A stretch of 64,000 nt of DNA. Origin: Clostridiales bacterium. Lineage in GTDB: Bacteria; Bacillota; Clostridia; Lachnospirales; Lachnospiraceae. Of the stretch, positions 36,439-64,000 are shown piece by piece. A program made the translations under genes and the position numbers. Under the pieces are notes generated by a model. That model saw only the letters and a list, made by a program, of their open reading frames with translations. It had not been told where the DNA came from and ran no database searches. Each line of letters begins with the position of its first letter. The first letter of the stretch is position 1. The stretch lies in the NCBI GenBank assembly GCA_021201535.1, contig JAJQEU010000120.1, positions 1 through 64,000 on the forward strand. The letters are read 5' to 3'.

Positions 36439-37122
36439 TCACATAGACGCCAGATACGCGTCCACATCCGCCAGAAACTGTTCCCACGCGTCCGGATTCT
36501 CCACATAATAAACCGGACACAGCTTCCCGGTAATATCATAGTGGCGCATCACATCATCCGACGTCAGCCCGAACTTCGCGCAGAGCCAGGCCGTCAGATG
36601 GACGACTGAATCATAGGTCGCCTGATTGAAGGAGCCGTCCTCATTCTCATAACAGCACTCGATCGACAGCGTATCACTGTTTCTTTCATTCGAAGCATAG
36701 GCGATCTCCGCCGTCGGAATACACTGTACAATCTCCCCCTCCAGACCCACGATAAAGTGCGCGCTCGCCTTCGTCGCGCGAGAATCCTTCAATCCCTCAA
36801 AATAATCGCGATTGGCCTCGGCCGAGGTACCCGGATTCGCTGTGTAATGAATTACGATCCCATTGACCTCCTCCAGCGCGATCCCCGGTCGGGAATATTC
36901 GTTGATCGTCAGCAGATCCACCTCATAATCCGGTGTATGCGCCTCAATGCTTTCCTCCGATATCTCCGTCACCGTCCGGACGGACGCCGACGTCCTGTGC
37001 CTCGTCACCGCCACGATCAGAAGCAAAATCATGATCAGGCAGAGAACCCCGACCAGCACATGCTTCATGTCATATAAAATCTGTCCGGCTCCCGCTCCCC
37101 TTTTTCTTTTGTGATAAGACAT
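36439..37122 (-). CDS. Membrane-anchored N-acetylmuramoyl-L-alanine amidase (Amidase_2/PGRP)
   Basis: N-terminal TM; GIVIHYTANPGTSAEANRDYFEG, ASAHFIVGLEGEIVQCIPTAEIAYA. Confidence 0.92.
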   Translation of the reverse strand: MSYHKRKRGAGAGQILYDMKHVLVGVLCLIMILLLIVAVTRHRTSASVRTVTEISEESIEAHTPDYEVDLLTINEYSRPGIALEEVNGIVIHYTANPGTSAEANRDYFEGLKDSRATKASAHFIVGLEGEIVQCIPTAEIAYASNERNSDTLSIECCYENEDGSFNQATYDSVVHLTAWLCAKFGLTSDDVMRHYDITGKLCPVYYVENPDAWEQFLADVDAYLASM

Positions 37123-37123
37123 A

Positions 37124-37155
37124 ATTACCTCCCGCGCGTCTCATCCATCCGGTAA
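37124..37155. repeat. 32-bp direct repeat, left copy
   Basis: ATTACCTCCCGCGCGTCTCATCCATCCGGTAA, identical to 37807..37838. Confidence 0.98.
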
Positions 37156-37209
37156 CTTAATGTAAACTAATGATGGTTCATATCCGGTAACTTAATGTAA
37201 ACTAATGAT
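37147..37209. repeat. Tandem 28-bp direct repeat (two copies, 35-bp period)
   Basis: ATCCGGTAACTTAATGTAAACTAATGAT at 37147 and 37182. Confidence 0.97.
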
Positions 37210-37259
37210 TGACAACACATCATTATGAGCGTATAATCTGATAAAAGGAACGGGTTTTC

Positions 37260-37802
37260 CTACTGAGTAAGGTCTATGGACCGGAAAAGCTTGCTCGTTT
37301 CTTTTTTTATGTTCATAATATCATATAAATACAATTTTCCATCTTTATCATGCCGTATGAGCATCGCCGCATGAAACACATTGTACCTCTCAACGTCTCC
37401 CGATTCTCCATAAACAGGCAAGGCAATTCGCGATTCATAACGATACCAGCCAAATCGGGCATTTGCGCTATGTTTATCTTTCCGATTTTCTTCATATCGT
37501 TTTCCTGATGCAATTTTTATGATTTCCGGCAAACCCTGTACAGCATTTGCTTTTGCTTTCGCATTTGCACCCTTAAGAATACGAGTGTAATTCGAATGAG
37601 CATATTCGTCAGGAAGGTCAGCACCTACATATACGATTTCATTTGTTGCAGCAATTGCATAAAATTCTCCCACATACTGTTTCAGATAATTTTCCACATC
37701 GTTCCAGTTCACATTACGTTTGCCTTTAAAAATTATATCATTTATAAGGACAATCTGATTTCCATCCGTATCTTCTATGATATCGACATTTGTATTCATC
37801 AA
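37260..37802 (-). CDS. Phage polyvalent-protein-like protein, possibly a PBECR/BECR-fold nuclease-related domain
   Basis: ARFGWYRYESRIALPVYGESGDVERYNVFHAAMLIRHDKDGKLYLYDIMNIKKETS resembles domains at the ends of large phage/ICE polyvalent proteins; AT-rich; SD GGGAGGT supplied by the 32-bp repeat. Confidence 0.5.
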   Translation of the reverse strand: MMNTNVDIIEDTDGNQIVLINDIIFKGKRNVNWNDVENYLKQYVGEFYAIAATNEIVYVGADLPDEYAHSNYTRILKGANAKAKANAVQGLPEIIKIASGKRYEENRKDKHSANARFGWYRYESRIALPVYGESGDVERYNVFHAAMLIRHDKDGKLYLYDIMNIKKETSKLFRSIDLTQ

Positions 37803-37806
37803 AAAG

Positions 37807-37838
37807 ATTACCTCCCGCGCGTCTCATCCATCCGGTAA
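37807..37838. repeat. 32-bp direct repeat, right copy (3' end of cbiC)
   Basis: Identical to 37124..37155. Confidence 0.98.
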
Positions 37839-38458
37839 AGAATCGCGTTACAGATCGCGGCCGCCACATTGCTGCCGCCCTTCCTGCCGCAGGCGACAAT
37901 GTAAGGCACATCCGTTTTTAGTATCAGTTCTTTGGCATACTCGACATTCACAAATCCGACCGGCACGCCGATGACCAGCTTCGGGCAGATCCTGCCCTCC
38001 TGTATCAGCTCATACAGGCGGATCAGCGCCGTCGGCGCGTTCCCGACCGCAAAAATCAGCGGCACATTCAGTCCCGCAGCCTTGTCCATGCAGGCAGCGG
38101 AGCGGGTCGTTTGATTTTTCTTCGCAGACTCCGCCACATCCTCATCTGAAATAAAATTATAGACCCTGCTGCCATATTTTTCCAGTGTATTTTTATTAAT
38201 TCCGGACATGACCATGCGGGTGTCTGTCACAATGCATGCGCCGTCCCGGATCGCCTGCATGGCATGACCGACCGCGTCCGGAGAAAACGTCAACGTTTCC
38301 GCGTACTCAAAATCGGCCGTCGTGTGTATGACCCGTTTGATCACCGGCTCCAGTTCCGGGTTAAGACGGATACCGCGCCGGACAAGCTCCTCTGAGATGA
38401 TTTCAAAACTCCTTTTTTCTATTTCCATGGGAAGTACATGTTCATATTTTATTTTCAT
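37808..38458 (-). CDS. cbiC: Precorrin-8X / cobalt-precorrin-8 methylmutase
   Basis: RVIHTTADFEYAETLTFSPDAVG, IVTDTRMVMSGINK, GVPVGFVNVEYAKELI. Confidence 0.95.
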   Translation of the reverse strand: MKIKYEHVLPMEIEKRSFEIISEELVRRGIRLNPELEPVIKRVIHTTADFEYAETLTFSPDAVGHAMQAIRDGACIVTDTRMVMSGINKNTLEKYGSRVYNFISDEDVAESAKKNQTTRSAACMDKAAGLNVPLIFAVGNAPTALIRLYELIQEGRICPKLVIGVPVGFVNVEYAKELILKTDVPYIVACGRKGGSNVAAAICNAILYRMDETRGR

Positions 38459-61903: not shown

Positions 61904-64000
61904 TTACTTCCAGTCAATGACGAATACATCATTGTTGCTGGTCGCCTGCGTCATCCGAATGGAAGTCGCCAGTGTCGTATCCTCAATGCCGCTCTGGAAG
62001 AAGATATTGGTGCCGCGACGAAGCGCCAGCTCATCAGAACCGTTGCCGTCCCAGTCGCCGACCAGAGCCTCATCGGTATCTTTGCCGAGGTCAGTCACAG
62101 TGACATCCGCTGTCGTAGAAGTGAATGACGCGTCATTCGAGAAGAAGTATGTGGTGCCGTCGCGGCGCGCGCAGATGGTCACAGAGCCGTCGCCGTCCCA
62201 GTCGCCGACCAGAATCTCATCGGATGCTCTGCCGTAATCCAGCACGACCGCGGCCTTCGTGGATGTGAGATCGTTCGAGAAGTAGTAGGTATTTCCGCGG
62301 CGTACGCAGAGCGTATCCTTGCCGTCGTTATCCCAGTCGCCTACGATTACCTCATCGGTGGTCCTGCCGTAATCCAGCTTCACATCCTCTGTCGTGGCGC
62401 TAAATGTGGTGTCATTCGAGAAGTAGTAAGTATTTCCGCGGCGTACGCAGAAGGTCTCCACGCCGTCGCCGTCCCAGTCGCCGACCAGAACCTCATCGTC
62501 CACTCTGCCGTAATCCACAGATGTGCTGTAGGTGTCATCTCCCAGTGCGTCATAGAGATAGAAGGTGTTTCCGCTGCGAATCGCCAGCGTGTCGCCGGTA
62601 TATGTCTCAGCAGTCGCCTTCTCCAGTGAGTTTGCTGCCTCTGTCAGAGCTGCAAGAGCTTCATCGATGGTTTCCTGCGTTGCTTTGCCGGACAGAACAT
62701 CCTGTACAGCTGCGTAAGCATCCTCAAGGGCTGCCCAGCTCTCAGCTGTATAGTCGCTCTCATCCAGAAGGTCGATCAGAAGAGCCGCATACTCAGCAGC
62801 TGTCTCAAGAGACGCGGTATCACCGTTCATCGTCAGATCCGCGATTGCGTCAATGATTGCCTGTGCCATCGCATCCACATCATCCTGCTCGGAAATCAGC
62901 TTGGTATAGTCAACCGCAGCAATCGCTGCCTCCACCTCACTGAGATCCATGAAATCATCCTCATTCAGAGCTTCCGCTGCAGCAATGGCTTCCTCTACCG
63001 CCGAGTAATCAGCGCCATAGGTCGCATATGTACCTTCCACATCCGTATCCGGAACCCACACATGCTCTACCATGTGATCCGCATAGTTCTGCAGGGTTTC
63101 CTGAAGGTTTGCGCCGTAGCCGTAATCTCCGCTGTTGTAGTACGCGATGATCTCTGTATAATTGGTCGTGTTGGAAGCATATCCGCCGTGGCCCGCATCC
63201 TCGGAATCATCCGTCTCGGCATCCAGAGCGATCAGTTCTGTCAGGTCAAGATATTTCTCCACGCCGTTCACGGTCATGGTAATGTACTCATGAGTCTCAT
63301 CCTCCGGCTTCGTCTCCGTTGCATACTCGGTCAGAAGCAGATAAGCAGTCTCGTTGCTGCTGTATGCAGGTGTCAGGAGATTGCCGTTTGCCTCAGCCTC
63401 GCCGGACAGCGCATACTCGATACCTACCTGAATCGCCGCAATGATGGCATCCTTGTCATAGACATAGTTCTCCTGATCCGGAACCTGATCATAGGTCTCA
63501 TCAACCGCATCCCAGTTGGTTCCGATATAGTAGAACGCCACGTCCTCTACAGACTCATCCTTTACATGCGCGCACTCGTCAAACATGAACATAACCATGG
63601 CCACCGGATTGATCGCCTCATTCACCTCAGCCAGCTCATCCATGTAAGCATAGGTCTGAACGTAAGGCATGAACATCGGAGTCGTCGGCGCATAATTGTA
63701 ACCATTGTTGCCGATCGTAACGCCGCTCGAGCTCTCATCCATAACCAGCGGCATTTCATCTGCCGAATAACCGAGATCCGCAAGCTCTGCAAGTACAGCC
63801 GCCTTGTCGGTGGAAACAACTCCTTCCGTACTTGTAGCGTTATTTCCGCCCGATCCATAGCTGTATCCGCTCGCACCGAGGACAATGATATCCACGTCAC
63901 ACTCTTCCATCAGAGATTCAAACGTATAGGTTCCCTCGATGTAATTAAAATTCTGAACCTCTGCATAGCAGTCCGCGCGAACATTACCCACATCCGTCGG
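61904..64000 (-). CDS. Large secreted protein, 5'-truncated by the window edge: N-terminal binding-like region, FIVAR-like repeats, C-terminal five-repeat GDWDGDG module
   Basis: Frame is open to the window end; LLDESDYTAESWAALEDAYAAVQDVLSGKATQETIDEALAALTEAANSL (FIVAR-like); DEVLVGDWDGDGVETFCVRRGNTYYFSND repeats. Confidence 0.85.
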   Translation of the reverse strand, partial: PTDVGNVRADCYAEVQNFNYIEGTYTFESLMEECDVDIIVLGASGYSYGSGGNNATSTEGVVSTDKAAVLAELADLGYSADEMPLVMDESSSGVTIGNNGYNYAPTTPMFMPYVQTYAYMDELAEVNEAINPVAMVMFMFDECAHVKDESVEDVAFYYIGTNWDAVDETYDQVPDQENYVYDKDAIIAAIQVGIEYALSGEAEANGNLLTPAYSSNETAYLLLTEYATETKPEDETHEYITMTVNGVEKYLDLTELIALDAETDDSEDAGHGGYASNTTNYTEIIAYYNSGDYGYGANLQETLQNYADHMVEHVWVPDTDVEGTYATYGADYSAVEEAIAAAEALNEDDFMDLSEVEAAIAAVDYTKLISEQDDVDAMAQAIIDAIADLTMNGDTASLETAAEYAALLIDLLDESDYTAESWAALEDAYAAVQDVLSGKATQETIDEALAALTEAANSLEKATAETYTGDTLAIRSGNTFYLYDALGDDTYSTSVDYGRVDDEVLVGDWDGDGVETFCVRRGNTYYFSNDTTFSATTEDVKLDYGRTTDEVIVGDWDNDGKDTLCVRRGNTYYFSNDLTSTKAAVVLDYGRASDEILVGDWDGDGSVTICARRDGTTYFFSNDASFTSTTADVTVTDLGKDTDEALVGDWDGNGSDELALRRGTNIFFQSGIEDTTLATSIRMTQATSNNDVFVIDWK

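Follow-up and report, generated by a model that had tools for sequence, protein, structure and literature searches.

The most valuable finding in the DNA analyzed here, a 64,000-nucleotide stretch of a Lachnospiraceae genome (the window), is a new antisense-RNA gene pair composed of a gene for a 179-aa protein and, on the opposite strand, a gene for a small structured RNA that overlaps its 3′ end. From sequence comparison, the RNA-protein pair looks like an undescribed toxin-antitoxin-like module that is common in gut and rumen Lachnospiraceae. In the window genome (G000) the pair lies within an AT-rich insert, bracketed by direct repeats, between cbiC and an amidase gene, with the following features (positions in the window):

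36439–37122, minus strand: N-acetylmuramoyl-L-alanine amidase gene (Amidase_2, PF01510), the downstream neighbor
37124–37155, minus strand: direct repeat, downstream copy; a non-coding copy of the cbiC terminus that has GGGAGG at 37128–37133 upstream of the amidase ATG at 37122
37147–37174, no strand assigned: 28-bp tandem repeat, copy 1, overlapping the left end of the 32-bp repeat
37182–37209, no strand assigned: 28-bp tandem repeat, copy 2, abutting the antisense promoter
37209–37237, plus strand: antisense promoter, TTGACA-17-TATAAT, 12/12 matches to the sigma-70 consensus; conserved at nearly all homologues
37238–37308, plus strand: antisense small RNA of ~65 nt, given as the stretch matched by model R1, with transcription expected to start near 37244
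37260–37799, minus strand: inserted ORF for an LPD3-like protein (putative toxin), 179 aa from the ATG at 37799; AlphaFold2 pLDDT 89, pTM 0.85
37807–37838, minus strand: direct repeat, the copy that lies upstream on the coding strand; it is the genuine cbiC 3′ end (..YRMDETRGR-stop), with GGGAGG at 37811–37816 serving the inserted ORF; the single copy at the G010 empty site
37808–38458, minus strand: cbiC, precorrin-8X methylmutase (PF02570, E 4.6e-76), the host gene, upstream of the insert on the coding strand

The 32-mer ATTACCTCCCGCGCGTCTCATCCATCCGGTAA forms an exact direct repeat with an offset of 683 between its copies (37124–37155 and 37807–37838), and no further match with three or fewer mismatches occurs in the 64-kb window, where the chance expectation is 0. 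The window contains four exact direct repeats of at least 26 bp whose copies are no more than 3 kb apart, this one included. The remaining three are a CTGT microsatellite in its first nucleotides (1–54), the tandem repeat within the insert, and a repeat in the repetitive stretch near 62 kb (a 29-bp exact direct repeat at 62186–62214, offset 276, in a seemingly repetitive coding region). The insert has a GC content of 36.4%, against 53–54% in the two neighboring genes and 52.4% across the window, and equally AT-rich 651-bp stretches make up only 0.3% of the window. The initial annotation had described the exact 32-bp duplication (37124 and 37807, offset 683), had taken the right copy for the cbiC end and the left copy for a sequence preceding the amidase gene, each with a Shine-Dalgarno (SD) sequence, and had called the interior AT-rich relative to its flanks. 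The repeat search, the GGGAGG motif found in both copies on the minus strand, and the GC values bear out each of these points. The 28-bp tandem repeat, the antisense promoter, and the antisense RNA gene, the last being the main content of the insert, had been overlooked. A transposase, a recombinase, and conserved terminal inverted repeats were all looked for in the insert and none was found. Two genes upstream of cbiC, a Fic/DOC family gene (PF02661; 39892–41070) is also AT-richer and possibly represents a further insert in the cobalamin region.

The antisense RNA gene has the parts of a complete transcription unit. Its promoter at 37209–37237 is the sole exact instance of TTGACA-17-TATAAT on either strand of the window, and it is followed by a terminator stem (arms 37246–37254 and 37294–37302), an inner hairpin (arms 37271–37274 and 37279–37282), and a U tract to 37308. 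The RNA overlaps the stop and the last ~15 codons of the ORF, with the terminator written in those codons, and its position makes it perfectly complementary to the 3′ part of the sense mRNA. Nearly all of the ~110 homologues examined carry the RNA gene downstream of the protein gene. Among 128 copies scored, the promoter matches at least 9 of the 12 consensus positions in 125, the spacing is 17 bp in 120, and TTGACA is present in 98; the scan was a simple consensus match, and a best-site search over ~150 positions finds some site by chance, but the recurrence of TTGACA in 98 copies and its fixed place before a conserved hairpin are, as a sequence pattern, not expected by chance.

Across 77 aligned RNAs, the terminator stem and inner hairpin covary, with 94.4% of cells paired compared to 47–61% when the alignment is slid, and with 92 double-change cells compared to 30 after shuffling, though the shuffles leave relatedness uncorrected. 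The mean fold energy is −18.5 kcal/mol for the antisense strand and −9.3 kcal/mol for the sense strand, and the antisense value is the lower in 76 of the 77; the fold is strand-specific because many of its pairs are G-U, which turn into A-C on the mRNA. Normalized synonymous codon entropy is 0.79 up to position 160 and 0.12 at columns 164–169 (p = 6e-5, for six columns only). Because synonymous choice is nearly frozen in exactly the columns that coincide with the RNA terminator, both strands appear to make use of these codons. A search of Rfam returned no family at the gathering score and one chance match, on other sequence. The comparative evidence shows the RNA gene to be a conserved, covarying, strand-specific, and dual-coding element, and on sequence evidence the pair has the type I feature of a cis antisense RNA with its own promoter opposite a protein gene.

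The protein is less readily placed. The ATG at 37799 is a likelier start than the TTG at 37802 given in the mechanical ORF list, and the resulting 179-aa protein is predicted by AlphaFold2 to be a compact globular alpha/beta fold. LPD3 (PF18798), reported from the polyvalent proteins of phages and plasmids as a domain without known function (PMC5512222), is matched weakly by 10 of 48 homologues (best E 0.003, all below the Pfam gathering cut-off), and the Pfam search gave no match to LPD3 for the window protein. The predicted fold matches LPD3-annotated and large polyvalent phage proteins in BFVD (TM to query 0.5–0.71, E to 6e-9). The protein is best filed as remotely LPD3-like and not as an LPD3 member. 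Comparison to PDB structures gave no good match, only NTF2-like folds with TM <0.4, and so no catalytic activity is assigned; a BECR nuclease fold, suspected from the order of a helix and four strands, was rejected on the same result. The PDB sequence search returned no relatives, and PADLOC and NCBIfam returned nothing beyond weak matches and the helix-turn-helix (HTH) domains of fused homologues. Several homologues have such a domain at the N-terminus and others are preceded by a small HTH gene. The fused forms suggest regulation, which need not take the form of a toxin-antitoxin system.

Among 20 congeneric genomes, 16 of which have a cbiC match, both occupied and empty forms of the junction are present. 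The cbiC end in G010 (..gatgagacgcgcgggaggTAATTATGTCT..) consists of one repeat copy with the amidase start directly after it, and the junction in G006 is of the same empty type apart from small differences. G016 has an insert with the same 683 offset, a 26-bp exact repeat, and a protein 84% identical to that of the window, while the insert in G011 is internally deleted, leaving approximately the first 24 codons, the last 30 codons, and the antisense unit, with the second repeat copy decayed. The internal borders of the insert and the short leader before the ATG can be aligned across G000, G016, and G011; the 28-bp tandem repeat is specific to G000 among these three. Based on the rpoB tree, (((G010,G000),G016),G011),G006, with support of 99–100% on the relevant inner nodes, G010 is the sister of the window genome. 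Because an empty site is sister to an occupied one, the pattern is probably the product of a single old insertion in the ancestor of G000, G010, G016, and G011 and a precise loss in G010, and not of recent movement. Neither the protein nor the RNA of the module was found in G010, and its clean junction would result from deletion between the repeats. The repeat pair is identical in G000 and in G016 (26–32 bp) despite ~20% divergence around it, possibly through gene conversion between the copies or selection on the ribosome site.

It should be noted that the single-repeat junction anticipated by the initial annotation, with the cbiC stop coupled to the amidase start, is present in G010 and near-identical in G006. 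Empty sites thus exist, and the ORF at 37260 is not a vertically conserved neighbor of cbiC, the two matters on which that reading had been said to depend. The proposed mobile cassette with a target duplication stands as far as the insert and the duplication are concerned, but recent mobility at this site is not supported, given the shared borders and the tree.

The module extends well beyond this junction. In a survey of 397 Lachnospiraceae genomes, using a profile of ten homologues for the protein and a covariance model for the RNA, the protein was found in 107 (~27%) and the RNA in 117. Named relatives belong to the Lachnospiraceae and related Clostridia (Butyrivibrio, Pseudobutyrivibrio, Blautia, Hungatella, and Eubacterium), and cultured carriers include Butyrivibrio hungatei, Hungatella hathewayi, and Blautia caecimuris. 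Homologues are rare in viral contigs (5) and phage records (1), and the plasmid search matched none, counts on which plasmid or phage cargo was rejected as an explanation. When 106 listed RNA copies were compared with the protein matches, 57 had a full-length gene, 22 had a C-terminal fragment only, and 27 had no detected protein. Among the protein pieces, 46 were C-terminal-only and 13 N-terminal-only, an excess that is partly a detection effect because the terminal codons are the best conserved. At the RNA copies with no detected protein a short remnant of the gene end remains, stopping a few codons past the RNA, and because these remnants retain an intact promoter and terminator, the comparison suggests that the RNA is retained by itself after gene loss. 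The window genome itself has a second, N-terminally truncated copy (contig C8, 20394–20646; loci L169, L015, and L048) in which the antisense RNA unit is intact (75 bits) and the rest of the protein gene is missing.

Of the full-length copies with enough flanking sequence, 92 of 116 have a co-directional gene directly upstream, and the recurrent hosts are cbiC, an rlmD-like gene (tRNA/rRNA U5-methyltransferase domain), a hemZ-like gene (named from sequence), and a recQ-like DEAD-helicase gene. At one locus (L201; G355 contig C129), an in-frame fusion joins the C-terminal part of the protein to the end of an rlmD-like rRNA/tRNA uracil-5-methyltransferase, and the antisense RNA is retained. When 105 copies were scanned for repeats on their flanks, lengths of 122, 97, 37, 33, 32, and 26 bp were found at several sites, compared to no more than 12 bp in shifted controls, although some of the longer matches (L157 and L114) enclose additional sequence besides the module and may have no connection with it. 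The ends of the insert differ from copy to copy, with no conserved termini. A classical transposon or MITE was rejected based on the lack of conserved terminal inverted repeats and the variable length of the duplication (26–122 bp). LINE-like retrotransposition, hinted at by 5′-truncated copies and variable duplications, was also rejected; 15 truncated or RNA-only copies have no flanking repeat above background and, as no repeats flank them, look like deletion remnants. Four copies with near-identical junctions (L043, L044, L045, and L047) are each immediately preceded by a gene for a serine recombinase with Resolvase, Recombinase, and zinc ribbon domains and followed by an Amidase_3 reading frame, an arrangement that resembles an amidase gene into which a serine-recombinase element has integrated. 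A serine recombinase as the general mover was rejected, as the cbiC insert and most other copies are without one. At three loci (L086:4001–5280, L087, and L098) one module is followed in tandem by a different one, and the repeat that brackets this second module takes in the RNA promoter region of the first.

The account that we favor, and hold to be somewhat probable, is that the insert constitutes a selfish or regulatory module of two parts, residing in the cbiC transcript and working like a 3′-overlap type I toxin-antitoxin pair. It would have entered the cbiC/amidase junction once, in the common ancestor, and the duplicated 32 bp would leave cbiC complete and supply an SD sequence to the inserted gene and to the amidase gene each. 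No sense-strand promoter was found in the insert by a consensus scan, and thus the protein gene is probably expressed as part of the cbi transcript, with the module mRNA arising by read-through. The RNA would start at the strong sigma-70 promoter just past the stop of the gene, end at the intrinsic terminator inside the last codons, and pair with the mRNA for the protein at its 3′ end, marking this mRNA for degradation and holding the protein level low. Recombination between the repeats could excise the module precisely, as probably happened in G010. Transcription, mRNA pairing, toxicity, and loss by repeat recombination are steps that we infer. Toxicity of the protein, proposed because the architecture resembles type I pairs and because the RNA is retained alone, is the weakest link of the model, and a soluble protein of 179 aa is large for a type I toxin and departs from the usual, though not universal, small hydrophobic character of such toxins. 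The pair is best filed, as far as its sequence allows, as type I-like rather than as a proven toxin-antitoxin system.

Other readings of the same evidence differ in what they ask of the protein and the RNA. The gene pair may be real and the protein harmless to its host, acting as an anti-invader or anti-restriction factor or as the partner of a DNA-binding regulator, with the RNA keeping its level low. Such a role would fit the fold matches to polyvalent phage proteins of the kind that contain LPD3 domains and are delivered on invasion (PMC5512222), and the HTH fusions or neighboring HTH genes in dozens of copies. However, the RNA often persists where the protein gene has been lost, which is more easily explained by protection against something harmful, and we consider a harmless protein unlikely. 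It is improbable that the structured RNA binds and neutralizes the protein directly, in a type III-like manner, with the antisense overlap a by-product of compact coding. The covarying fold and its conserved loops do exceed what pairing with a perfectly complementary target would need, yet structured stems are usual in antisense RNAs too. The known antitoxin RNAs of type III systems are encoded upstream, in the same orientation, and as tandem repeats, and no such arrangement was seen here.

A conserved stem followed by a U tract is also the shape of a terminator, and the hairpin might be that alone, serving the convergent side or both directions without a functional small RNA. A bare terminator needs no promoter, whereas here a near-consensus promoter precedes the hairpin at a nearly fixed distance in almost every copy, making a complete transcription unit, and the inner hairpin covaries as well; a terminator-only role is very improbable. 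An active mobile cassette that entered cbiC independently in G000, G016, and G011 is quite improbable. The exact duplication of 26–32 bp in G000 and G016, despite the ~20% divergence nearby, and the many unrelated loci occupied in other genera would be expected of such an element, but the internal borders and leader align in all three genomes, the repeat has decayed in G011, the rpoB tree fits a single insertion with one loss, and gene conversion can keep repeats identical.

A type I-like pair would have its closest parallels in txpA/RatA and yonT/SR6 of Bacillus subtilis, in which an antisense RNA from its own promoter converges on the 3′ end of the mRNA, an arrangement that is predicted here from sequence. 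The overlap of RatA with txpA is ~75 nt, SR6 has a length of ~100 nt, and both RNAs promote mRNA decay via RNase III (PMC4147584, PMC5848175). Both systems are also on mobile DNA, and yonT is on a polycistronic mRNA. They differ in that the toxins are peptides of 58–59 aa, compared to a 179-aa globular domain of predicted compact fold, and in that the RNA terminator described here is inside the coding region. A non-hydrophobic protein (there a toxin, here a putative one) combined with an antisense RNA is shared with SymE/SymR and RalR/RalA, and SymE has 113 aa (PMC4147584). However, SymR covers the start codon and ribosome site, whereas the RNA here covers the 3′ end, and no sequence relation to either system was seen. 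Where LPD3 is a module of 1000-residue phage proteins, the present protein is chromosomal, stand-alone or HTH-fused, and accompanied by an antisense RNA. Direct repeats of variable length (26–122 bp here) recall IS1549 and IS1634, whose target duplications of 8–514 bp were reported without a model for them (PMC2266710), though the present case differs in that neither a transposase nor conserved terminal inverted repeats could be found. A literature search for antisense RNAs paired with toxins in Lachnospiraceae found nothing relevant.

A broader proposal, which is held only tentatively, is that these proteins form an undescribed Lachnospiraceae toxin family in which the RNA antitoxin is encoded within the C-terminal codons of the toxin and is widely retained alone against incoming copies, and that the module spreads by insertion with variable-length target duplications at the 3′ ends of housekeeping genes. 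The analysis adds a gene for a small structured antisense RNA that Rfam lacks; paired with the uncharacterized protein, it is present in more than a quarter of the genomes sampled from a family dominant in gut and rumen. Should the pair be a toxin-antitoxin system, it would represent a rare large globular toxin under the control of a 3′-overlapping antisense RNA and a clear case of codons shared between two coding strands, it would offer a tractable test of whether orphan antitoxins are kept as protection, and the LPD3-like fold would gain a function to test.
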